This document shows, piece by piece, positions 1-15,267 of a stretch of 24,736 nucleotides of DNA. How positions within the stretch are numbered: position 1 is the first letter of the stretch; each line of letters begins with the position of its first letter. The notes beneath the pieces are model-generated. The model was given only the letters and a program-made list of their open reading frames with translations, did not search any database and was not told where the DNA came from. Origin of the DNA: a virus; IMG/VR virus record IMGVR_UViG_3300006929_000116, positions 1 to 24,736 of that record. The stretch is one strand, 5' to 3'. Made by a program: the position numbers and the translations under genes.

Positions 1-1
1 A

Positions 2-1885
2 GCTTTGTCTACTAAAGCCCAAATTAAGAGGTTGAAATCTACTGCGTATACTAATGGTATTACATCACAGAACTATACATTTTATGAAACCTATACGCCT
101 TCTCCATTTATTTCTGAAAACCTGCAAACAACTAGTGTTGATTTATTCTCAGGAAAAGAAGACTTTACTGTAAGGGCAATACAAGAAATAAATAGAAATC
201 CTCAACTATATGAGGACTTTGTTTATAACTCAATAACAACAGATAAGGTAGAAAAGTCTTTTAGTAACACTGTTAAAGATTTACTGCGAGGTAAAGTGGC
301 TTTAGATGGTAGACCTTTATCAAAAGTAGTTGCAGCAGCAGTTAAACAGTCTATAGTTTTTGATGAAGATAAGTTTTTCAATCAGCAAAACATTCAAGAC
401 TTAGTAGGAAACGGTGGGTTTAGCACGGTTGAAATAGTGAAGTCCACTTCACCAGCGACTAATAAAAAGAGAGCAGTAAATACTTTGATTAATAAATCAA
501 TAACCTTAGACCCTGATGAATATCACATTAAAAATAAAAATAGGCTGCTGAACTGGAAAATACTTGCGGAAGACATAAACAAGAGGCTAGTTTATAAAAA
601 ATCAGACTTAACCGAAGAGAATATTTATCTTCCTAACTCTGAGACTATTGCTGTTACTGACTCAACAGGTGCAGCACACACCTTAGAGATGCAGGATGGT
701 GATTACTTTACTGTTGATACCGTTGATGCTACGAATAGATTAACAGTTTTTTCTGATAGAGAGAAGGCTAAAATATTAAACTTGGAAGATACTGCAAGGG
801 CTTTTTATTTATGTGATAAGACGTATAAGATTGATATATCGTGCAGCACACCCCCATCATCCATTGTTGAATTAAACGTAGATCTATCCACCCCAAGAAA
901 TGATTACTACATTTTAACTCTAGATAAAAGCACTATTGAAGATCAACTTTCTACAGACCCGCTGTTCAAAAAAACAAAAGCAACATACAACTATGTCACT
1001 GATACAGCCACTATAGATTCTTTTATAAAGAACAAAGCTTTTCCGCATTTTACTGTGATGATTCGAGATGATGATATGTTTATAAACCATTTAACATCTA
1101 CAGGTAAAGTAACCGCAACCTTTGAAGACATGTCTTTGGATAACTTTGATAACACTCCTGATAGTTTATATGTAAGAAGGATGCCTTGGTTTTTCATTAT
1201 TGTGCCTTCTGATAAAACAAGTGCTGTTGTTAGCCATCAAAGATCCAAATTTGAAAGTTTCAATAACAGAGTTTTATCTATAATTCCAACACCGCAAAAA
1301 CAGAATAACCATACGGGAACATGGAGACAGGAGTTTATCACTGAGAAAGTTATCACCGAAGGAGGTGTTAATTTTGATGTTGACATTGAAAATGGTGTAT
1401 ACTATCAAGAGAATAGAGAATACTCAATTGATTATGATTCTTTAGCGGCTTTTGATAATTATGCTACGGGTGCTCCTACCCTACCTAGAAAAAGATTACC
1501 TGCTTGTAAAACCTTATTGGAGGTTTGCTCCATTAAATCAGATTTTGAATTAGGAGAGCGGGACTCACTTTCGTTTTACGATCTTTATACTCGACTAGAA
1601 CCAAAGTATTTTAGATCTTTATCTATTGATACTAATAACTTAGCGGCGTTTAAAAATAACTTGACGCGAAATACTGTATCGCCTGATAAAGAAATAAATA
1701 AAACTTACTTTACGAAGGTTAAAGAGATATCAAATATAGATAACAAAAAACCCACTATCTTAGTAGACACAGACGAAACCACAGCGGTAACAGTATTTAA
1801 TAAATCTAAAACAACCGCAGAAGCGGCGACAGGAGCAACCACAGCGCCTACTGATGCTAGTGACAGGCTTGGAGGAGGTTACTAA
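2..1885 (+). CDS. Large virion-type protein of unknown function (5' partial)
   Basis: The frame is open to the left window edge; the first possible start, a TTG at position 5, has no visible ribosome binding site within the window, so the true start probably lies upstream. At least 626 residues are encoded. I do not recognise the family. The protein is soluble-looking, without signal peptide or membrane segment, rich in Asp, Thr, Asn and short beta-type stretches, and has a low-complexity Ala/Thr tail (about residues 600-620) ending in GGGY. It sits directly upstream of a PAAR-like gene (TAATG overlap) and of the head operon, so a baseplate, tail or other virion role is inferred from context only. 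It is not a recognisable gp20 portal. Codon use is AT-rich, with about 28 of 33 Phe codons being TTT. Confidence 0.6.
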   Translation, partial: ALSTKAQIKRLKSTAYTNGITSQNYTFYETYTPSPFISENLQTTSVDLFSGKEDFTVRAIQEINRNPQLYEDFVYNSITTDKVEKSFSNTVKDLLRGKVALDGRPLSKVVAAAVKQSIVFDEDKFFNQQNIQDLVGNGGFSTVEIVKSTSPATNKKRAVNTLINKSITLDPDEYHIKNKNRLLNWKILAEDINKRLVYKKSDLTEENIYLPNSETIAVTDSTGAAHTLEMQDGDYFTVDTVDATNRLTVFSDREKAKILNLEDTARAFYLCDKTYKIDISCSTPPSSIVELNVDLSTPRNDYYILTLDKSTIEDQLSTDPLFKKTKATYNYVTDTATIDSFIKNKAFPHFTVMIRDDDMFINHLTSTGKVTATFEDMSLDNFDNTPDSLYVRRMPWFFIIVPSDKTSAVVSHQRSKFESFNNRVLSIIPTPQKQNNHTGTWRQEFITEKVITEGGVNFDVDIENGVYYQENREYSIDYDSLAAFDNYATGAPTLPRKRLPACKTLLEVCSIKSDFELGERDSLSFYDLYTRLEPKYFRSLSIDTNNLAAFKNNLTRNTVSPDKEINKTYFTKVKEISNIDNKKPTILVDTDETTAVTVFNKSKTTAEAATGATTAPTDASDRLGGGY

Positions 1886-2247
1886 TGGCATTTATAGCAA
1901 TTGACGGAGATACAGGTACAGGAATATGTACTTCTCCCGAACATAATGTGTTAGGAGTACCTGTCCCCATCACTGCCACCACTATCTTTGACGCTAAATT
2001 AGCTAAAAATGTTTTTATTAACAATGAACTTATTGTTTTAAGAGACTCTGAAGGGAGCGCCTCTTGTGGACACACTACGGCTGCCACTACAGGATCGAAC
2101 ATTTACATAGGTAGGTTATTTTGTGAAAACAAAGGGGTTCATTGTGACACTGAAGAGATGGGGTATGGTGAATTTAATCAAACGGGCTCATATCTTGTAG
2201 ACCCCGTTGTTGCTAGAAATGTTACATTAATTGCTGAACAGATTTAA
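1885..2247 (+). CDS. Small Cys/His-containing protein, PAAR-like spike-tip candidate
   Basis: The 120-residue product starts at an ATG overlapping the previous stop (TAATG), behind a near-perfect GGAGGAGGT ribosome binding site, so the two genes are translationally coupled. It is Gly/Thr/Val-rich and has several Cys and His residues: C15, H20, C61, H63, C80, H86, C87. The segment around C61-G-H63 followed by a Thr-rich stretch and SNIYIGR resembles the GH...(S/T)xNVxVNGxPAAR pattern of PAAR-repeat proteins, which bind a metal ion and sharpen the tip of contractile-tail spikes (gp5.4 in T4). The match is by eye and partial, so a different small virion protein is possible. Context beside a large virion protein fits a baseplate role. 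Confidence 0.4.
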   Translation: MAFIAIDGDTGTGICTSPEHNVLGVPVPITATTIFDAKLAKNVFINNELIVLRDSEGSASCGHTTAATTGSNIYIGRLFCENKGVHCDTEEMGYGEFNQTGSYLVDPVVARNVTLIAEQI

Positions 2248-2276
2248 TTTTTTTTGCACCTTGTTGTTGCAAGTAA

Positions 2277-2291
2277 GTACATACTCGTAGA
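2277..2291 (+). promoter_or_regulatory. Repeated promoter-like element upstream of the gp67-like gene
   Basis: GTACATACTCGTAGA here matches GTACATACTTATAGA at 4674-4688 in 13 of 15 positions. Both copies lie in short intergenic gaps ahead of prohead core genes, and both are followed by ACGGAGTT and an AT-rich run before the ATG. A late promoter or operator is inferred; no T4-type TATAAATA is present here. A weak hairpin (AGGG/CCCT, 2291-2304) follows. Confidence 0.3.
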
Positions 2292-2332
2292 GGGTTTTCG
2301 CCCTTATTCAATAATAACGGAGTTATAATATT

Positions 2333-2737
2333 ATGGATTTTAGTCAGGATGTAGACAAGGATTTTGTCAACACTATTCTTGAAAGTTCACTTTGGAAAAA
2401 AGCAAATGTTGACGTAAAGAAAAGTGAAGTTGTTAGCGAGTCAGCTAACGAGGGCGATATGGGTGTCATTGATGATTACCAAGACGGTATCGCAAATGAG
2501 TACGATGAGCCTACCACTCTAGATGGTGAAGTAGACCACTCACAGGATAGATTCTCTTTGGATGATCTTCAATATGTTCTTGATAACCTTGAGGAAGAAG
2601 ACCTCATGGAACACGCAATGAATATGCTTGATGTCTTTGACGTAGCATACGAGACTCTTTCTGAGTCTGGTGATGATGACGAAGAAGAAGAGGAAGAAGA
2701 GGAAGCCGAAGAAGAAGAGGAAACAGAAGAAGCTTGA
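2333..2737 (+). CDS. 67: Acidic prohead core protein, gp67-like
   Basis: This 134-residue protein is strongly acidic and ends in a low-complexity tail made almost wholly of Glu and Asp (about residues 112-134). T4 gp67, an internal core protein of the prohead, is also small with a Glu/Asp-rich tail, and its gene is upstream of 68, 21, 22 and 23, the same order as here. The core proteins act inside the assembling head and are cleaved by the gp21 protease. An ILE-S sequence (residues 15-18, fitting the (I/L)xE cleavage rule) is followed by W21, K23-A24 and V26-D27-V28, a motif repeated in the next gene. The ribosome binding site is GGAG, 11 bases before the ATG. Assignment rests on composition and gene order rather than sequence identity. 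Confidence 0.5.
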   Translation: MDFSQDVDKDFVNTILESSLWKKANVDVKKSEVVSESANEGDMGVIDDYQDGIANEYDEPTTLDGEVDHSQDRFSLDDLQYVLDNLEEEDLMEHAMNMLDVFDVAYETLSESGDDDEEEEEEEEAEEEEETEEA

Positions 2738-2739
2738 AG

Positions 2740-3234
2740 ATGAAAGAGATAGACATCGCAAGCTTTGCGGAAAATCTTCTTGAGGAAGAGGTATCTAAGG
2801 GTAAACCTGTGCAGTTCGCTGCTGCTCAGGCCCCTGATGCCCCTGATGTCTCAGACGTTGAAGTTCCCAATAACTTTGCCTCTCAAGTATTATCTGAGGG
2901 ACATTGGGCTAAGGCACATGTTGATGTAGGTACAGTTATTGTAGAGGAATCTACTCCTGCTCCTACTCCTAAAAAGAAAGCTCCTGTTTCTACCCCCAAG
3001 CTTGTCAATGAAGAAAGTGTTTATAAACAACATCTTCTAGTTGAATATAAGAAGAAGGTGGATGATTTAAAAGAGTTGGTTTCTTTGATGGAATCTTTAG
3101 GTATAGTTGGAACGGGATCCGCAACAGGAGCTACCTTTACAACTTCCTTGGGCACAGGTCCTATGGGCAAAAACCCACAAAAAAAGAAGAAAAAAACATT
3201 AAGGAAAAATGCCCCTCGTAGATCTAGTTATTGA
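2740..3234 (+). CDS. Prohead core-type protein of unknown family
   Basis: I take the ATG at 2740 as start (164 residues); an in-frame TTG at 2734, overlapping the upstream stop, is an alternative that adds two residues. The family is not recognised. An acidic N-terminal half is followed by a Pro/Lys linker, a likely helical stretch (YKKKVDDLKELVSLMESL) and a Lys/Arg-rich tail. Residues near 46-63 repeat the motif of the upstream acidic protein: F, an LSE-G sequence matching the (I/L)xE rule of T4-type prohead proteases, then W-x-KA-x-VDV. Its place between a gp67-like and a gp68-like gene suggests an internal core or scaffold protein processed during head maturation. The 3' end overlaps the next gene by 26 bases. 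Confidence 0.5.
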   Translation: MKEIDIASFAENLLEEEVSKGKPVQFAAAQAPDAPDVSDVEVPNNFASQVLSEGHWAKAHVDVGTVIVEESTPAPTPKKKAPVSTPKLVNEESVYKQHLLVEYKKKVDDLKELVSLMESLGIVGTGSATGATFTTSLGTGPMGKNPQKKKKKTLRKNAPRRSSY

Positions 3235-3580
3235 GTCTAAAAAACGTCCCGATAAGCGTGGTTCTTACCACACTCTAAAGGATGGGGTTGTATCCTCAAA
3301 GAAATCTAAAGTTGTGAACTACCCAAGTATTAAGGTAGCTCTTAGACGAGGATACCCTGGACAGATTTTTTCTACTAAAGGAGCAGCAAGACTATATGTT
3401 GTTAGTAAAGCAGGTTGGGGTAAGAAGAGTTCTGGCAAAATAGCTAAAGGATTTACCCCAGGCTCTGCTACTCCCTCTGCTAAGTGGGATAGTATCAAGG
3501 GTCATTCAGTCAGAACAATGAAGAAACACGGGAAACAGAAGTCCCGAAAATTTGAAAAATATAAGGTAAAAAAGAAATGA
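3209..3580 (+). CDS. Small basic protein, gp68-position prohead core candidate
   Basis: This 123-residue protein is very rich in Lys, Arg, Gly and Ser and ends in KVKKK; no membrane segment or catalytic motif is visible. An AAGGA ribosome binding site lies 4 bases before the ATG, inside the end of the upstream gene, and the stop overlaps the protease start (ATGA). In T4 the gene between 67 and 21 is 68, encoding a prohead core protein, so by position this could be its counterpart, perhaps pairing by charge with the acidic core protein or with DNA. Sequence similarity to gp68 cannot be judged by eye, so the name is withheld. A nucleic-acid-binding head protein is the main alternative. Confidence 0.5.
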   Translation: MPLVDLVIESKKRPDKRGSYHTLKDGVVSSKKSKVVNYPSIKVALRRGYPGQIFSTKGAARLYVVSKAGWGKKSSGKIAKGFTPGSATPSAKWDSIKGHSVRTMKKHGKQKSRKFEKYKVKKK

Positions 3581-4635
3581 TTTTAACAGATACATTTATC
3601 GTAGAAAGAGCCGAACTCATCACTGAAAGTAGGGGAGGCAGAAAGACACCTATCTTACGAGGTGTTTTTGGTCGTTGTGAAGAAAAGAATAACAACGGGC
3701 GTGTTTATTCCAAGTCTATTTTGGAAAGAGAAGTTACAAGGATTGGAGATGCGATGAATGAGAGACGTTTACTTGGTGAATTAGATCACCCAAGCCATGA
3801 CGCTGTTAAACTAACTAATGTTTCGCACCTAATCACCAACCTTAACTTTAAAAATAACGAACTTGTTGGTGAGTGTGAACTACTTGACACTCCAGCAGGT
3901 AAAGTTGCTCAAGCTTTAATTGAAGGCGGTGTAAAAGTCGGTATCTCTTCTAGAGGTATGGGAACTTTATCAGAAAATGCAGACGGAACTAAAAAGGTTA
4001 ATGATGATTTTAGATTAGTAACATTTGATTTAGTCGCTGATCCCTCTACTAGAGGCGCTTTTCCTGGAGTTTCAGAATCTACTCAATCCACTTTAGTGGA
4101 GGAGATTGTTAAAGATACTCTTGATAAAGCAGCAAAAGAAAAAGTCTTCACAACTCTTCTTAAGGACAAATTAAGAGAGAAGTCCGCTGAATTTGCTACT
4201 CAAGATCCAGGACCCATGGCTAAAGGTAAGCCTGTGTTGGTTAAGGTGGGTAAGAAGAAGCCTACTGCGGAAGACCCCTTCCGTAATTGGGAAGATTTTT
4301 ACGGAGCCTACACAGGAAAGCCAAGAGTTAAGAAAACTAGAGGCTATGATGATTTTGATACTGTGACTGCCCCTGAGAAATGCTACGAAAATAAGTTCGC
4401 TGCTCTTAAGGATGCTTTAACAGAGAATAAAAATATTTCCACTAGACAAGCAAAAAGAATGAGAGATGCGGGTTCAGTCACCGTAGGTAAGTCTCTTGGA
4501 GGTAGGTTAAAAGACACTATGGCTAGGCAGGGCTTTTTAGGTAAGAAGGCTGCTATAAAGGCAGGTAGAGAAGAGGGTAAGATGATAGCCCAGAAGGGTC
4601 CGTTAGGCACTAGAAAGTCCCCCTACAATAAATAG
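3577..4635 (+). CDS. 21: Prohead maturation protease, gp21-like, with long C-terminal extension
   Basis: The first 170 or so residues match T4 gp21-type prohead proteases (serine protease of the herpesvirus-assemblin fold): NGRVYSKSILEREV at 40-53, GELDHP with the probable catalytic His71, GISSRGMG at 122-129 with the nucleophile Ser124 or Ser125, and a DFRLVTFDLVADPSTRGA block at 144-161. The enzyme would cleave scaffold, core proteins and the gp23 N-terminus after (I/L)xE inside the prohead. T4 gp21 is about 212 residues; this protein is 352. The extra C-terminal part (about 185-352) is Lys/Arg-rich and of unknown role; T4 gp21 also loses its C-terminus on activation, so this may be a propeptide or a fused core protein. 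The start overlaps the previous stop (ATGA); gp22 and gp23 follow. Confidence 0.9.
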   Translation: MILTDTFIVERAELITESRGGRKTPILRGVFGRCEEKNNNGRVYSKSILEREVTRIGDAMNERRLLGELDHPSHDAVKLTNVSHLITNLNFKNNELVGECELLDTPAGKVAQALIEGGVKVGISSRGMGTLSENADGTKKVNDDFRLVTFDLVADPSTRGAFPGVSESTQSTLVEEIVKDTLDKAAKEKVFTTLLKDKLREKSAEFATQDPGPMAKGKPVLVKVGKKKPTAEDPFRNWEDFYGAYTGKPRVKKTRGYDDFDTVTAPEKCYENKFAALKDALTENKNISTRQAKRMRDAGSVTVGKSLGGRLKDTMARQGFLGKKAAIKAGREEGKMIAQKGPLGTRKSPYNK

Positions 4636-4654
4636 AAAAATTTAGAAAAAAATA

Positions 4655-4673
4655 GCCTCTTTTTTTAAGAGGT
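4655..4673. other. Intergenic hairpin between gp21 and gp22 genes
   Basis: A six-base-pair stem CCTCTT/AAGAGG with a U5 loop, extendable by one G-U pair. On the plus strand no T-run follows, so it is not a standard terminator there. On the minus strand it is followed by TATTTTTTTC, which looks terminator-like, although no minus gene ends here. It may be an RNA processing or stability element. Confidence 0.25.
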
Positions 4674-4688
4674 GTACATACTTATAGA
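4674..4688 (+). promoter_or_regulatory. Repeated promoter-like element upstream of the gp22-like gene
   Basis: GTACATACTTATAGA, the second copy of the element at 2277-2291. It lies 14 bases before the ATG of the scaffold gene, directly followed by the ribosome binding site region ACGGAGTT. TTATAGACA (4682-4690) recurs at 5337-5345 in front of gp23. Probable transcription start region for late head genes; inference only. Confidence 0.3.
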
Positions 4689-4702
4689 CACGGAGTTTAA
4701 AT

Positions 4703-5329
4703 ATGAGTAAATTCGATAGTATTTCGCAGCTTCTTCCTGAAGGATTAACAGAGGAGACGGTTTCTGAGATCGCCACACTTGTTAATGAGGTTATTTCAGA
4801 AGAGGTTGGGAACAAAGTTAAAGATTTAGAAAACAAAGTTCATGGTTTTCTTCGGATGAAGATTGATGAGGTAAAATCTCATGCCATGAATGAGCTTGAG
4901 CAAGAAAACGAGACATTTAAGAACGCTCGCATCTTTGAATCACTTAAGGCTTTGATGGCTTTAGAGCTTAATAGCGGTGATGAGGATAATGCAGTTTCAC
5001 AAACTAGAAAAGAGTTTGATGAAATTCAAGAAGAGAACAGTGTTCTTATTAGAGAGTTAAACTCAGCATTAACTGAGTGCTCAAAATTAGAAAACACCTT
5101 AAGGGTTTTATCTGAAAAGGTAGAGATTCTTGAGGATGATAAGGAAAACCTTCATGAGGCTGTAGTGGCTTTAGAAGAGTCCGCTAGGCTTCCTTTTGAA
5201 AGTAATGAAAAGGCAGTCGTTATCTCTGATCAAGTAGATGAAGAGATACACAAAGAAATAGTTGAACCTCATGATGGTAATGAGTTTATCAACGAAAACA
5301 TGATGGCTTTTATGCCCTTTAAAAAATAA
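4703..5329 (+). CDS. 22: Prohead scaffold protein, gp22-like
   Basis: This 208-residue protein is acidic and almost entirely helical and heptad-like, as expected of the T4 gp22 scaffold that forms the core on which gp23 assembles and is then degraded by gp21. The N-terminus (about residues 5-40, ISQLLPEGL then ETVSEIATLVNEVISEEV) has the character of gp22-family N-termini, and a coiled-coil stretch covers about residues 105-160. Several (I/L)xE sites are present, for example LPE at 11-13. It is shorter than T4 gp22 (about 269 residues). Position between the protease and the major capsid gene is the canonical T4 order and is strong support. A GGAG ribosome binding site lies 8 bases before the ATG. 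Confidence 0.8.
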   Translation: MSKFDSISQLLPEGLTEETVSEIATLVNEVISEEVGNKVKDLENKVHGFLRMKIDEVKSHAMNELEQENETFKNARIFESLKALMALELNSGDEDNAVSQTRKEFDEIQEENSVLIRELNSALTECSKLENTLRVLSEKVEILEDDKENLHEAVVALEESARLPFESNEKAVVISDQVDEEIHKEIVEPHDGNEFINENMMAFMPFKK

Positions 5330-5345
5330 TTGGAGATTATAGACA

Positions 5346-6974
5346 ATGGAAATTAACGTCAATGGCGATGTAGCCAACGAAACAGTCCAGAAGTGGTCTC
5401 CTGTATTGGAAGGAATAGAAAGCGAGTACACAAAGAGAGTAACTGCTCAACTTTTAGAAAACCAAGCAAAGGCAATCATCTCCGAAAAAGTTCGGATGGA
5501 TGAGGATGTTGCTCAGGGTATCGGTGGAACAACCACCACAACCCGTCTAGGTGCTTTCCAAAAGTTTGCGTTCCCTCTTGTTCGTCGCGTCTATCCTGAG
5601 CTAATCGCCAACAATATCGTTGGGGTTCAGCCCATGCAGGGTCCCGTTTCCCAGATTTTCTATCTTGGAAACTCACGCAGAGATGGACTTGCTGGTACAC
5701 CCGAGCAAGCAATTTACAGTAAGTACAACCTCACCTACAGAGGTCTTACTGCTGGTCAGATCATGGCAAGTGGTACTGGAAACTTCCAGACCGATGGCAC
5801 TGCAACTGGCCCAGGTCTCCCTGATGGAGCCCCTGGTGTAGGATTTGATGTTAGTGACATCATGAACGCAACTTCTGGTGCGCCTTCAACCACCGTTGGT
5901 GGTAAAATCGCTGATTTCCCAACACCTGGGAAGATGCGCGGCGTAGCTACTGGTCCTGCAAGCCTTCTTGGTTTCAACGTCTCCGCTGGTGAGCGTCTTG
6001 AAGGATCTGGCATTCCAGAGATGATGTTCAACATCGAGCAGCAGCCCGTTGCCGCTCGTACACGCAAGATGAGAGCCCTTTGGACTCTTGAGGCTTCTCA
6101 AGACCTTCGCGCTTATCACAACCTTGACCTTGAGCAAGAGCTTACCGACCTTCTTGGTAAAGAGCTTCGCCTTGAGATCGACCGTGAAATCGTTGAAGAC
6201 CTTAGAATGCTTGCTTACGGTGTAGGCAAGATGGGTGAGTTCGGTAACGCTGGTACTGATGAAATGTGGAATGCAAGAAGCCTTGACCAGTCTTACGCAG
6301 GTGATACAGGAACTAACTTAAAGTTTGAGCCTGATTTCACTGGCGCAAGCAGCATGGATTATGATTTCACAGGTCGTTACGCTCATAAGAGACCTAAGGA
6401 TTACGACAACGTGTTCCTTATTGATTTCTCAGACAGCACTCTTGGTTTCGCACCACAGCATGTTGGTCACGTTTACGCTAACCTAATGGCACTTTGCCAT
6501 AGGGCAGCAACCGATATCTACAAGTCCACCCTTCGTGGTCCTGGAAACTTCATCGTCACTTCTCCAACCGTTGCCGCAATGCTTCACGCAGCAGCACGAA
6601 TGGAAGGTGGTGTTCAGAATGTTGACGGTCCCACAAACATGAACGGTGCCCGTGTTGAATATCGTGGTAAGCTTGGTGGTCAGTTCGACCTCTATGTTGA
6701 TCCCATGTATCCTGAGGACGAGATCATGGTTGGTTACAAAGGTGCCAACGCTATGGATTCTGGTTATGTATATGCACCATACATCCCACTCCAGCAGACA
6801 CCTACCATTACCGATCCTGAGACCTTCCAACCCAGAAAGGGTATCATTACCCGCTACGGTAAAGCCGCAGTTGCTCCCGCATCAAGATTCTACAGAATCA
6901 TTAGATTGATCGGTCCAACCGCCAACTACCTCTTCACACCATTCGTCGCTGTGAAGAACAACTCCTGGGCATAA
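5346..6974 (+). CDS. 23: Major capsid protein gp23
   Basis: The 542-residue product has the hallmarks of T4 gp23: KWSPVLEG near residue 16, LLENQAKA near 36, IVGVQPM near 91, the block ALWTLEASQDLRAYHNLD followed by EIDREIV, GNFIV, GGQFDLYVD, VGYKGANAMDSG with YAPYIPL, and DPETFQPRKGIITRYG near the C-terminus. It forms the hexamers of the head (HK97 fold). In T4 the N-terminal delta domain is removed by gp21 after an LTE sequence; here no (I/L)xE lies at the equivalent place (about 60-70), and candidates are E38 (LLE) and E47 (ISE). Codon use is distinct from its neighbours: 19 of 22 Phe codons are TTC, which suggests selection for high expression. The ribosome binding site is GGAG, 11 bases upstream, and a strong terminator follows. 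Confidence 0.97.
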   Translation: MEINVNGDVANETVQKWSPVLEGIESEYTKRVTAQLLENQAKAIISEKVRMDEDVAQGIGGTTTTTRLGAFQKFAFPLVRRVYPELIANNIVGVQPMQGPVSQIFYLGNSRRDGLAGTPEQAIYSKYNLTYRGLTAGQIMASGTGNFQTDGTATGPGLPDGAPGVGFDVSDIMNATSGAPSTTVGGKIADFPTPGKMRGVATGPASLLGFNVSAGERLEGSGIPEMMFNIEQQPVAARTRKMRALWTLEASQDLRAYHNLDLEQELTDLLGKELRLEIDREIVEDLRMLAYGVGKMGEFGNAGTDEMWNARSLDQSYAGDTGTNLKFEPDFTGASSMDYDFTGRYAHKRPKDYDNVFLIDFSDSTLGFAPQHVGHVYANLMALCHRAATDIYKSTLRGPGNFIVTSPTVAAMLHAAARMEGGVQNVDGPTNMNGARVEYRGKLGGQFDLYVDPMYPEDEIMVGYKGANAMDSGYVYAPYIPLQQTPTITDPETFQPRKGIITRYGKAAVAPASRFYRIIRLIGPTANYLFTPFVAVKNNSWA

Positions 6975-12001: not shown

Positions 12002-12628
12002 ATGGCATACAAACAATATTTCGCAGGAACAGACCCTCTAGTTAATAGAAACATTACAGAAGGTGATGATGTTCCAAACATTTCAACTGACTTAGATTCA
12101 GTGAGAGCATATCAATGGGAGGTTAACTTCTTCTTTGATAAGCAGGGCGCAGGTGACGGGGGTACTCTTAACGGGAACCAAAAACCCTTAACCTTAGCAG
12201 CAAAGCAGGTTAATGGGATCGGTATGTCTGTTGAAGACATTGAAGTTAACAGAGTTAACGACAAGACTTACTATCCTGGAAGACCTAGTATGGAGGAGGC
12301 AGTTGTAACTTTCGATAACCTTTCTAGAACTAAAGTTGACCGAGTTCTTTATGAGTTATTTGGTAAAACATATGACCCAAGAAACGGACAAATGGGTGAT
12401 ATTGGAAGAGGCACAGCCAGCAAAGGTAGAATGGAACTCGTTCAGCTTCAACCAAACGGTGAGCCCAGAAACGTCATTCATTTAATAGGAGCGTATGCAA
12501 AATCAGTTACTCATGGAGAGTATAACTATAGCACAAACGAATTCCATACTATCGAAATGACCTTCCGTTACGATTACTTTGTTAACACTAATGATGCTGA
12601 CGGTGAAATTAGAACCACCATTGCATAA
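12002..12628 (+). CDS. 19: Tail tube protein gp19
   Basis: The 208-residue product is the expected inner tube subunit directly after the sheath gene. It has the mixed beta content and conserved C-terminal pattern of tube proteins: IEVNRVNDKTYYPGRPSMEEAVVTFDN in the middle (about 80-105) and HTIEMTFRYDYF near the end, comparable to the IQTFEVTLALDYW end of T4 gp19. T4 gp19 is 163 residues; the extra residues are mostly in the N-terminal third. An AGGA ribosome binding site lies about 11 bases upstream. A strong terminator follows, so the tail operon ends here. Confidence 0.88.
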   Translation: MAYKQYFAGTDPLVNRNITEGDDVPNISTDLDSVRAYQWEVNFFFDKQGAGDGGTLNGNQKPLTLAAKQVNGIGMSVEDIEVNRVNDKTYYPGRPSMEEAVVTFDNLSRTKVDRVLYELFGKTYDPRNGQMGDIGRGTASKGRMELVQLQPNGEPRNVIHLIGAYAKSVTHGEYNYSTNEFHTIEMTFRYDYFVNTNDADGEIRTTIA

Positions 12629-12649
12629 ATTATAGAGTTTAATAATTAA

Positions 12650-12688
12650 AAACCCAACTCGTTTGGATGCGGGTTGGGTTTCTTTTTT
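12650..12688 (+). terminator. Rho-independent terminator after gp19
   Basis: A 12-base-pair stem (AAACCCAACTCG at 12650-12661 pairing with CGGGTTGGGTTT at 12670-12681, one U-G pair) with an 8-base loop, followed by CTTTTTT. This is a strong intrinsic terminator of the neck/tail operon. Confidence 0.93.
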
Positions 12689-12691
12689 AGC

Positions 12692-12702
12692 TATGATATG
12701 AT
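12692..12702 (+). promoter_or_regulatory. TATGAT element abutting the start of the 854-residue gene
   Basis: TATGAT is followed by five bases and then the ATG at 12703, and no ribosome binding site is visible. The same TATRAT-N5-ATG spacing is seen at the minus-strand nuclease and gp55 starts. A -10-type element giving a leaderless or near-leaderless transcript is inferred. The region is AT-rich, so chance remains possible. Confidence 0.3.
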
Positions 12703-15267
12703 ATGGATTACTTTACTGAATTACTTGAGAGTTACTCACGTTTAAAAAAGCGAGAGCTTGTCTTATTGGAGAAGGAAGAGAAAAAAGAGAAGCCTGATAA
12801 AGTAATACAGGAATATACTCCTGAGCAGGTTCTAACGGCTGCTTTAGGAACCCCTGTCTCCACAGAACCTGTAGCAATTCCTGGACTCGTTACAAAAGAT
12901 AAAGATGGAAATGAAAAGGCAGCTACTGGATACCAGAAACCACCTGGAGAAGGTGAAATGCATGGAGAGGTCGTTGCTACTAATGCCACTAAAAATGCGA
13001 ACAGCGCAATAGTTGTTAACGCTGATGGAACACCTAAAGAACCTCAGTTTACCACATGGTTCGAAAGAAACTTTGCGGGTAAAGAAGCCCTTGAACAAGG
13101 GGCTGGGACAGGACTAGAAGCTGCGCGACTCCGTGTAGGAGAATCTCTAGGGCCTATTCTTTCAGATTCTGGGGTGGATGATTCAATGCAAGCTACGATC
13201 TTCTCCCAAGTCAGAAACATGCTAGAAATAGCAAGTGAGTTGGTTGTTTCAGCTAGAGATCAAGGAGTTAAACAGGCTTGGGCAGGATGGAAAGCTGGGG
13301 AAGATGAAGGCTCAGGCAGGTATGTCGGCAGAGGTGAAGATAATTCCGACGATCCTGAAATGACCAGGAGTGTAGGTTCTTATATCTCTGGCAGATCACA
13401 AAAGAGTATTGAGTATCAGATAGCTCACGGTAAAACAGTTGAGTTTGGAGAAGATACGGGAGCGGTGTTTGATACTTTGGCAAAAGACCCTATGCTTATT
13501 GAAGGTGCTTTAGATTCTGTGCAAGCTTTTATGGAGTTAGGCAAAGCAGAAGTCGCAGACCGAGAAACAAAATGCGATCAAATAGGAAGAAGAGTTAAAA
13601 GCAAGGGAGATCGTTTAGTTTTCTTTAGGAATGAAGATCCAAATCAAGGAATTGCCATCAAAAGAAGCGAGATATTTAAATTTATTGAAAGTCAAATTGA
13701 GGAATCTTGTCCTGAAGGTATCAAAGCTATACCACAAGGAACATATACAAACCAACAACTAAATGACATGCGAGGTAAAGGCATGGAGCAAGGCTCTGTT
13801 GCCGTAGGTATCCTTCCAAACATACAATCTCTTCCTTCTGGCTCACTTAAGAGTAAACTTTCCTCCATGATGGGCAAGATTCTACGAAGAGAGTTGTTAA
13901 AAGATCAAAAAAAATTCAGTGCTGCTTATAAACAATTGAAAGAATCTAAGCCTGGAGATGTAGCTTTAAGCTTAAGAGCATCTTTTGTTGTAGATGCTAT
14001 GGAACAACTAAACGTATTAACGAACACTCCTGAAAAAGCAAGAGCTTTCTTACAAAGATCTTTTGACATGGAGGCTCCTGTGGTGGAAGCTATTGGGTCT
14101 AAATTTACCTTTCCCGTAGGTAAGAAGACTGGGCTTGGCTATGCTGATGATCTAGAATACGCTTTCTTGGATGAAAACTCTGCTAAAAATGCGGCTAAAA
14201 CTATGAAGCTGCAAGGCGATGCTGTAAATGCAGTTAAGGTTTCAGACTTGATGAAAGAACAAGGCGAGTTGGGTTCGGTGTTCAAAGAGTTATACTCATT
14301 GTCAGATGAGGACACCGTACATCTGGTTGGAAGTGGTCAGAAATCTTATTTTAAAGACGGGACTTTAAAGTTTGGAGAAACCACACAAAGAAGCGGTGCA
14401 GTTAATGGCACCGCTGATAATATCGCACCTGGGTTCGAAGAAATTACCATGCAAAGATTAGGTATTAATGAACAAGAACTTGCTGGGTTAAGAGAGTACC
14501 AAGGTGAACTAGACCAATTAGATTCTACATTAGACACTATTCTTCCTGACGATGGGACTGTTTCTGTAAACTCCAACGGCAATAAGAACCCAATAAACTT
14601 TGAAACTGTAGCAACAATGGTGAACTCCTACTCTAAAAGACTGAGTTTAGACTCTGAGGTAAGAAGTAAATTAACCTCAGTCGTTCAAGATTATCAAGGA
14701 ACCTTAACTAATTTAAATGGTCCTGATAATTCTATACAACGTAGTGAGTTAAAAAATGAACTCTCTAGAGTGTTAACTGCCTCAAAGCAAATAAGTGATA
14801 TGAATAATACAGATGATCCTGAACTGGCGATGAGGGCTAGAAGAAACTTAGCTTACGCAATACACATGACTGGTGGAGTTCTGCGTGATGGTATACTAAA
14901 CAAAAAAGTATATGATGATAATACAGTCAGAGCAGGATCCCATATGTCTCCCTTGATTGAGGCAACAAAAGGGTTGTTAAACATGGATCCTGATCATAAG
15001 GTAAAAGGATCTAAGGGTATGATGAGTATTAACTTAATAGGTCCTAACGGACAGGCTGTAAGTTTTGGTGCAGAAAGAACCAGAACATCTGATGGTAAAG
15101 CACAAACAAGAAATACTATAGATGTTAACCTCCTAGCTCAAAACCAAAAGGATGGAGTAGGGTTAGAAGAAAAGGTTGATATTAGTGATTCAGTACAGGA
15201 TAGTTTAATGTTAAGCTTCTTAAAAGGTCAAGCAAAACTGCTTGAAGAATTATTAGCTAATAAGTAA
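12703..15267 (+). CDS. Very large unrecognised protein (virion or injected protein candidate)
   Basis: The 854-residue product begins MDYFTELLESYSRLKKREL and has no signal peptide or membrane segment. A charged N-terminal helix and Lys/Glu linker (1-40) is followed by a Gly/Thr/Pro-rich stretch to about 100, then a long helical, charged body with likely coiled-coil segments (for example about 395-470 and 610-735). No catalytic motif or family is recognised. It stands alone between the gp19 terminator and a convergent nuclease gene (11-base overlap at the 3' ends). Size and position next to tail genes suggest a virion-associated protein, such as a head internal or injected protein, but nothing in the sequence proves this. 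The portal (gp20) that follows gp19 in T4 is not present. Confidence 0.6.
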   Translation: MDYFTELLESYSRLKKRELVLLEKEEKKEKPDKVIQEYTPEQVLTAALGTPVSTEPVAIPGLVTKDKDGNEKAATGYQKPPGEGEMHGEVVATNATKNANSAIVVNADGTPKEPQFTTWFERNFAGKEALEQGAGTGLEAARLRVGESLGPILSDSGVDDSMQATIFSQVRNMLEIASELVVSARDQGVKQAWAGWKAGEDEGSGRYVGRGEDNSDDPEMTRSVGSYISGRSQKSIEYQIAHGKTVEFGEDTGAVFDTLAKDPMLIEGALDSVQAFMELGKAEVADRETKCDQIGRRVKSKGDRLVFFRNEDPNQGIAIKRSEIFKFIESQIEESCPEGIKAIPQGTYTNQQLNDMRGKGMEQGSVAVGILPNIQSLPSGSLKSKLSSMMGKILRRELLKDQKKFSAAYKQLKESKPGDVALSLRASFVVDAMEQLNVLTNTPEKARAFLQRSFDMEAPVVEAIGSKFTFPVGKKTGLGYADDLEYAFLDENSAKNAAKTMKLQGDAVNAVKVSDLMKEQGELGSVFKELYSLSDEDTVHLVGSGQKSYFKDGTLKFGETTQRSGAVNGTADNIAPGFEEITMQRLGINEQELAGLREYQGELDQLDSTLDTILPDDGTVSVNSNGNKNPINFETVATMVNSYSKRLSLDSEVRSKLTSVVQDYQGTLTNLNGPDNSIQRSELKNELSRVLTASKQISDMNNTDDPELAMRARRNLAYAIHMTGGVLRDGILNKKVYDDNTVRAGSHMSPLIEATKGLLNMDPDHKVKGSKGMMSINLIGPNGQAVSFGAERTRTSDGKAQTRNTIDVNLLAQNQKDGVGLEEKVDISDSVQDSLMLSFLKGQAKLLEELLANK

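Follow-up and report, generated by a model that had tools for sequence, protein, structure and literature searches.

A short stretch shared by two adjacent putative head-core proteins of an uncultured marine T4-like virus as a possible docking element

The DNA analysed here (the window; 24,736 bases) is one whole virus record, and its sequence reads as that of a T4-superfamily myovirus with a gp23-type capsid protein and a gp21-type prohead protease. The open reading frames (ORFs) past the major capsid protein (MCP) are presumably those of the tail sheath and tube, followed further on by replication and nucleotide genes. The head genes and the features within them are given below. Residues of the protein that we call the neighbour are numbered from the ATG at 2740; the ORF list begins it at the TTG at 2734.

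2333..2737, plus strand: acidic gp67-position protein of 134 aa, with an N-terminal motif, a linker, a helical domain and a Glu-rich tail (ORF; 59 distinct homologues; AF2 helices)
2363..2416, plus strand: motif copy 1, FVNTILESSLWKKANVDV, residues 11-28 of the acidic protein (conserved with synonymous codon changes in 12 relatives)
2375..2383, plus strand: I-L-E, residues 15-17 of the acidic protein, a possible protease site inside copy 1 ((I/L)xE in 30/59 homologues)
2657..2665, plus strand: L-S-E, residues 109-111 of the acidic protein, a candidate protease site directly before the acidic tail (conservation of E111)
2666..2734, plus strand: Glu/Asp-rich tail of the acidic protein, residues 112-134 (ORF)
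2740..3234, plus strand: the neighbour, a gp68-position protein of 164 aa with a Lys/Arg-rich C-terminus (ORF; alignment A4)
2755..2796, plus strand: predicted N-terminal helix of the neighbour, residues 6-19 (AF2; alignment A4)
2875..2928, plus strand: motif copy 2, FASQVLSEGHWAKAHVDV, residues 46-63 of the neighbour (second best of 9607 24-mers; AF2 helix 46-53)
2890..2898, plus strand: L-S-E, residues 51-53 of the neighbour, a candidate protease site (49/65 anchored homologues)
3209..3580, plus strand: basic 123-aa protein, conserved and without the motif (its N-terminal leader ends in an invariant Glu)
3577..4635, plus strand: prohead protease, gp21 type (Pfam Peptidase_S77, PF03420, E 1.4e-22; PHROG 207, head maturation protease, E 5e-52)
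4703..5329, plus strand: scaffold-position protein in the gp22 place (position; (I/L)xE enrichment)
5346..6974, plus strand: MCP, gp23 type (Pfam Gp23, E 2.1e-78)

The MCP matched 2487 phage records, every one at less than 60% identity, and the best 30 of these 2487 were 29.6-31.6% identical. The close kin of the window are IMG/VR contigs (the relatives' loci are numbered L and their records G). The whole region gave no match to phages by blastn, nor did tblastn against phage records match the basic, neighbour or acidic proteins (the last as residues 1-119) of the window at an E limit of 1, or those of distant relatives at an E limit of 0.1. No Pfam match above the curated cut-off and no PHROG match at E 0.1 or better was obtained for these three window proteins; below the Pfam cut-off, the neighbour matched DUF7073 (E 0.0019). 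The scaffold-position protein matched no naming family in Pfam or PHROG. A PDB search with the acidic-family alignment (A3) returned only two entries, both for the same nucleosome assembly protein (best E 0.027), a match that we took to reflect the acidic tail, and the basic-protein alignment (A1) returned none.

A reading of the window from its letters (the sequence-only reading) had called the acidic protein and its neighbour head-core proteins. The label rests on position: the genes adjoin those of a Peptidase_S77 protease and a Gp23 MCP in T4-like order, the protease gene being near the core genes with one basic gene between. It does not rest on homology, as profile comparisons gave none to T4 gp67 or gp68. 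The acidic protein resembles T4 gp67 in being small, in its Glu/Asp-rich tail, in the place of its gene ahead of those for gp68, gp21, gp22 and gp23, and in the Glu right before the tail, which is part of E-G in 6/8 T4-like gp67 and of LxE in A3; the other two of the eight, from Vibrio phages, have D-G and no acidic tail. It differs in that the eight T4-like gp67 lack the W motif and in that the window has no portal gene directly upstream. By hhalign, A3 against an 8-row gp67 family (A7) gave p 0.04 and a probability of 1.3%, aligning only the start of the acidic tail, and gp67 homology was found neither with single sequences nor with this family. The neighbour resembles T4 gp68 in its place between the gp67-place gene and the protease side and in its Lys/Arg-rich C-terminus, but an extra basic protein lies between it and the protease. 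Its alignment A4 against an 8-row gp68 family (A6) gave p 0.44 and no alignment, and single sequences likewise found no gp68 homology. No homology to gp68 was found for the basic protein or the acidic family either.

Unlike in T4, no portal gene was recognised between the tail tube and the core genes (window 1-6974 and 12002-12703); an 854-aa ORF comes after the tube gene, and the core cluster sits elsewhere. The gene ahead of the cluster differs among relatives: the window has a 626-aa ORF and a PAAR-like 120-aa ORF there (5-1885), and ORFs of 933-1215 aa lie upstream of the acidic gene in L065, L066, L067, L008 and L068.

The two motif copies lie where the sequence-only reading had placed them, at 2363-2416 (acidic residues 11-28) and 2875-2928 (neighbour residues 46-63), and share F, L6, W, K, A, V, D and V in register (8/18 identical). 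An (I/L)xE site at the same spacing, which had also been claimed, is off by one: ILE occupies motif positions 5-7 and LSE positions 6-8, so that the Glu stands four residues before the Trp in the acidic protein but three before it in the neighbour. The VDV agrees within the window pair, but its D is not conserved among relatives of either protein. That the two proteins are otherwise unlike was borne out by BLASTP, which matched them at E 7e-4 and gave no second significant match. The best ungapped local match of the pair scored 50 across 23 residues, a score reached in 1/1500 shuffles of both proteins, and the Gumbel p was 3e-4 with the acidic tail removed. An HMM of the acidic family matched the neighbour ORFs of L009 (1.2e-4), L006 (5.7e-4) and L067 (2.6e-3), and the window's own neighbour only at 0.046. 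At the DNA level the copies are identical at 28/54 positions. The resemblance of the two stretches is real and beyond chance; the earlier observation as a whole was confirmed in part.

Searches with an HMM of the 24-residue motif recovered the acidic protein from 11/13 records and, weakly, one neighbour place (G011, E 0.022); two records of the VLGTAAW type gave no hit. Because this HMM also missed the window's own neighbour, we used a position-specific matrix over all ORFs, which was built from 25 acidic segments and zero neighbour segments and slid over ORFs of at least 60 residues in 11 records or loci. In the window (9607 24-mers), the neighbour stretch came second at 24.8, and all further ORFs, among them those of the MCP, the protease and the scaffold-position and basic proteins, stayed at or below the next value of 9.2; the basic protein was not among the top scorers. 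The search of the phage and its relatives that had been proposed earlier thus recovered the acidic copy as top scorer in 11/11 records or loci (its own segment being inside the matrix for most), the neighbour copy in second place in 8/11 and, in the other window ORFs, nothing above 9.2. The eight second-ranked neighbours, at 21.7-32.1 against 6.7-15.3 for the next best, are those with the W; in G002, G003 and G005 the neighbours lack it and were not second, and the best other ORFs scored 9.3, 12.7 and 16.8. There is no clear third copy in the 11 records scanned. A larger matrix of 54 segments gave the same picture in the window (42.5, 18.6, then 14.1), apart from one more segment in G003, a borderline case that scored 17.6 and belongs to a 945-residue protein, and a profile scan with the acidic-clade alignment returned 14 loci, all within contigs already collected. 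In the T4 region (3370 24-mers), the motif matrix scored a gp23 segment at 13.2 and NKDDINTIVENML of gp68 second at 12.9; the apparent likeness of this gp68 segment to the motif helix is a weak lead only.

Relatives were collected with the adjacent basic protein as anchor, which gave 70 loci differing in the exact neighbour ORF (66 distinct by the last 90 residues of the neighbour) and, from these, 59 distinct acidic homologues found by their Trp. Ten of the remaining loci were inspected: a copy lies further upstream and is clear in L113 and L125, and is weak in L121 and L147; the sequences of L026, L032, L116, L126 and L128 are cut off; and none was found in L100, where the ORF first taken was left out. 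The acidic N-termini align as V-x3-F/Y/V/L-x3-L/I/V-L/I/V-x2-A/S-x-W-x2-A-x-V/I/L. Among 52 distinct segments picked by the Trp, which is therefore 52/52 by construction of the search pattern, 48 have Ala at W+3 and 51 have V, I or L at W+5. Likewise, W21 is the sole invariant column of the 28-row alignment A3, for which rows had been selected by this residue. Where the window has ILE, (I/L)xE occurs in 30/59 homologues and is missing from 29/59, all of which have the W and read, for example, LIKNAAW, LINNAAW or VLGTAAW. Within the window's clade the motif Glu is present in 12/12 and (I/L)xE in 11/12. Acidic homologues outside this clade (L013, L025, L130 and others) carry a conserved C-P-L-C (CxxC), often after a His, which is a possible metal site in a core protein; the window's clade lacks this segment.

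Among the 70 neighbours, 65 were anchored on D-I-S-x-V-x-V and five were not; one of these five, L088, reads LSES by eye and has no W. (I/L)xE followed by S/G/A/N/T/K/D is found in 49/65 anchored neighbours, and in 56/65 with any next residue. The W..A element occurs in 9/65, including L002, a near-identical copy of the window's locus. At the position ending at W-3, six of these nine have (I/L)xE and the others read FSE, VSE and FEE, the last with IFE one residue earlier; the Glu is present in 8/8 W-bearing neighbours when L002 is left out. The closest differing relative, L004/L068 (MCP 96% identical to that of the window), has a neighbour without the W element, in which TESFSV replaces SEGHWAKAHVDV and the flanks remain alike. 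On a tree of the protease and basic protein, the W element needs 6 changes, of which at least 2 are forced (mean with shuffled labels 5.9); 9/13 inner branches of this tree are unresolved, and row L042 seems to have been built from the wrong ORF. Since the W element is missing in a close relative and looks scattered on this poorly resolved tree, it is dispensable in those neighbours. The N-terminal helix predicted for the neighbour (FAENLLEE; GDFAxxLLxQE in distant relatives) echoes the F-A/V-x2-L-L pattern of the motif helix.

A comparison of the profiles of the acidic and neighbour families aligned 20 columns (E 7e-5, probability 63%). Because 9 of the 27 rows of A4 carry the W, the comparison was repeated without them, and with the remaining 18 neighbour rows the helix part, V-x3-F-x3-I-L, aligned in the same position over 18 columns (E 2e-4, probability 46%). 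The helix is thus common to both families, and W-x-K-A-x-[VI]-x-V is a feature of the acidic family and of a subset of neighbours. In 12 relatives, acidic L16, E17, S18, S19, W21, K23 and V28 are fixed (12/12) and the codons other than that of the W vary, as at S18 (AGT/AGC 6:6). The pN/pS was 0.27 for acidic residues 10-28 (66 pairs of the 12 relatives) and 0.35 for the W-to-V part of 8 neighbours, with synonymous sites near saturation (pS 0.74). The motif of the closest pair, window and L004, has 4 non-synonymous changes over 45.7 sites and 2 synonymous over 11.3, and purifying selection is not evident from this pair alone. AF2 predicted helices at 9-16, 20-23, 76-84 and 88-111 of the acidic protein (mean pLDDT 62.7, pTM 0.24), with the motif helices in blocks at pLDDT 65-75 and the linker behind them at 45. 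For the neighbour, it predicted helices at 6-19 and 46-53 (mean pLDDT 65.3, pTM 0.23), with block 41-50 at 80 and then two blocks at 67 and 54 that hold the W part. The C-terminal helices were predicted with more confidence, but both models as a whole are weak.

Passages of PMC9026906 give L/I-x-E as the T4 prohead protease rule, as the sequence-only reading had stated, and both ILE/S and LSE/G conform to it. We tested 20 window proteins for an excess of (I/L)xE. It occurs 7 times in the neighbour against 1.3 expected (0/1000 shuffles as high), 9 against 3.2 in the protease (1/1000), 14 against 5.9 in the scaffold-position protein (2/1000) and 10 against 4.6 in the first, 626-aa ORF (5/1000), is marginally enriched in an 82-aa ORF (40/1000), and is not enriched in the acidic protein (4 against 2.6, 251/1000) or the remaining proteins tested; in coiled-coil proteins, the enrichment may partly stem from heptads. 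When S/G/A was required next, the shuffles per 1000 were 10 for the scaffold-position protein, 32 for the neighbour, 78 for the acidic protein and 144 for the protease. T4 gp21 is described as cutting gp22, gp67 and gp68 to small peptides (in passages of PMC9026906 and PMC9958956), and by analogy the enrichment is in line with a core-protein role for the neighbour, which would be cut at several places. In the acidic protein, the pre-tail L-S-E is conserved better than ILE as a candidate protease site: E111 is at least 90% conserved in the 28 rows of A3 and invariant in the 12-row A5. We relied on this aligned column, as the pattern count of pre-tail sites (53/59) is inflated by Glu-rich composition. 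For the giant phage 201phi2-1, cleavage sites are said in passages of PMC9026906 to have extremely few determinants besides the Glu. Each site in the two proteins could be cut independently, the acidic Glu being 12/12 in the clade and the neighbour site 49/65.

We infer from these patterns that the stretch serves core proteins as a short linear docking element, with putative cleavage sites beside it, a reading to which we give about even weight. The element would have two layers, an amphipathic helix (V-x3-F/V-x3-I/V-L) in both families and, behind it, W-x-K-A-x-[VI]-x-V. In the acidic gp67-position core protein it would be N-terminal, with an old and conserved helix and Trp, and in part of the window's clade the complete element would also lie inside the adjacent gp68-position protein. 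Most likely it would fasten both proteins to one common partner during prohead core assembly, for which the scaffold, the protease, the inner shell face and the portal are candidates, and the contact would be undone at maturation when a gp21-type protease cuts the (I/L)xE sites beside the element. We favour docking because E and W are separable, 29/59 acidic proteins having the W without (I/L)xE and most W-free neighbours keeping (I/L)xE, and because the T4 core uses signals of this kind, the capsid targeting sequences (CTS) of its internal proteins. It is also supported by the matrix ranks, by the alignment of the helix part between the families with and without W-bearing neighbours, by motif residues that are fixed while codons vary synonymously (pN/pS 0.27 and 0.35) and by the predicted helices at 9-16 and 46-53. 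Against docking, the W element of the neighbour is dispensable in L004/L068 and looks scattered on the poorly resolved tree; the Glu is as fixed as the W in the window's clade (12/12), which would be expected of a cleavage tag; synonymous sites approach saturation and the closest pair alone shows no purifying selection; and the AF2 models are weak, with low pLDDT in the W part of the neighbour. The docking site for protease, scaffold or shell suggested earlier is the best fit, each of these being a candidate partner; the earlier interpretation as a whole is partly supported.

As described in passages of PMC9026906, the CTS of T4 IPII and IPIII occupies the extreme N-terminus, spans 10-19 residues and is removed by cleavage; targeting depends on residues 4 and 7, and processing on residues 8 and 10. 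The present element is likewise short and near an N-terminus, with putative targeting residues and then processing residues, and would similarly bring a protein into the prohead core. A CTS ends in an (L/I)-x-E site cut by gp21; a possible site of this type is present in both window copies, but of the acidic homologues 30/59 keep it. The element differs in occurring in gp67- and gp68-position proteins and in that its W-x-K-A-x-[VI]-x-V part follows the possible cut. Moreover, the acidic copy lies at residues 11-28 and the neighbour copy is internal, at 46-63. Because its position falls outside the CTS definition, we did not file the element as a CTS; at most, it may work like a CTS-type signal.

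The sequence-only reading had also proposed a common cleavage tag, for which the protease would read (I/L)xE together with the downstream W-x-K-A-x-V-x-V and remove the N-terminal parts of both proteins. Both sites fit the T4 rule in the passages of PMC9026906, the Glu is found in 12/12 acidic proteins and 8/8 W-bearing neighbours of the clade (L002 not counted), and the neighbour, protease and scaffold-position protein contain more (I/L)xE than expected. The sites, however, are one residue out of register; 29/59 acidic proteins lack (I/L)xE though the W stays, as do 3/9 W-bearing neighbours at the aligned place (W-3); no other window ORF scores above 9.2 with the motif matrix; and, according to the same source, 201phi2-1 sites have extremely few determinants beyond the Glu. 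The proposal is not supported as stated, given the register, the retention in 30/59 acidic proteins and the matrix scan, and we consider such a tag unlikely. The stretch might instead be the relic of an old tandem duplication in which the genes or their N-terminal parts share an ancestor, with no shared partner required. The adjacency of the genes and the helix part, which aligns across the families with and without W-bearing neighbours, would suit this origin, but nothing besides the helix and motif aligns by BLASTP or profile comparison, the 28/54 identity of the DNA speaks against recent copying, and a W part in only 9/65 neighbours suggests gain or exchange and not original inheritance. 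We hold a duplication relic to be decidedly unlikely.

Self-association, in which the core would be built through binding of the acidic protein and its neighbour to each other, or of each to itself, by way of the motif, draws on the occurrence of the motif in two adjacent genes whose products are probably made together, and on the short predicted helices. Since there are genomes in which the neighbour has no W part and the acidic protein still has the motif, we judge it very improbable. A chance resemblance might be suspected from so short a stretch with just 8/18 identities, but only 1/1500 shuffles scored as high, the stretch ranks second of 9607 24-mers with a wide gap to the next, and eight further loci with a W-bearing neighbour have it too, one of them almost the same as the window. 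Chance is already refuted at the level tested (shuffles, matrix rank and recurrence), and the probability left to it is negligible.

If the docking reading holds, the stretch might be a second class of T4-superfamily core-entry signal. This signal, helix plus W-x-K-A-x-[VI]-x-V, would be distinct from the protease site. A large uncultured marine lineage would use it in the gp67-position protein, whereas the gp68-position protein would have gained or lost it repeatedly, the segment just after the protease site there being apparently exchanged between close relatives. We offer this wider proposal tentatively and think it doubtful. How proteins come to be placed inside the T4 prohead core is still mysterious according to a passage of PMC9958956, and among the papers listed for related terms no title or abstract opening describes this motif. 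Conserved, shared by two core genes and naturally separate from the protease site, the motif is a small, testable candidate for a placement signal, and it marks three core gene families (acidic, neighbour and basic) of an uncultured marine T4-like lineage.

Two further leaders were noted. The 854-aa ORF (12703-15267) starts with the leader M[DN]Y[FY]xxLLESYxxLK[KR]R (window 12703-12765), which recurs in large ORFs of relatives, 850-995 aa where complete. Four of these, matched by BLASTP (L010, L178, L169 and L183), are 25-43% identical to that of the window; the remaining ones were found by a pattern for the leader itself. This leader looks more like the T4 CTS than the motif does, and the 854-aa protein may be an internal or ejected head protein. 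The basic protein (3209-3580) is strongly conserved throughout the lineage, and its short leader ends in E9, which is invariant in 13/13 rows of A1, and 11/13 rows fit (I/L)xE, the window and L009 having VxE; the protein is possibly a counterpart of the T4 internal proteins. Its alignment also matched QCKN01000003.1 (L187), a contig of the Prochlorococcus single-cell assembly AG-409-P03, which is a lead to the host or reflects a co-sorted virus.
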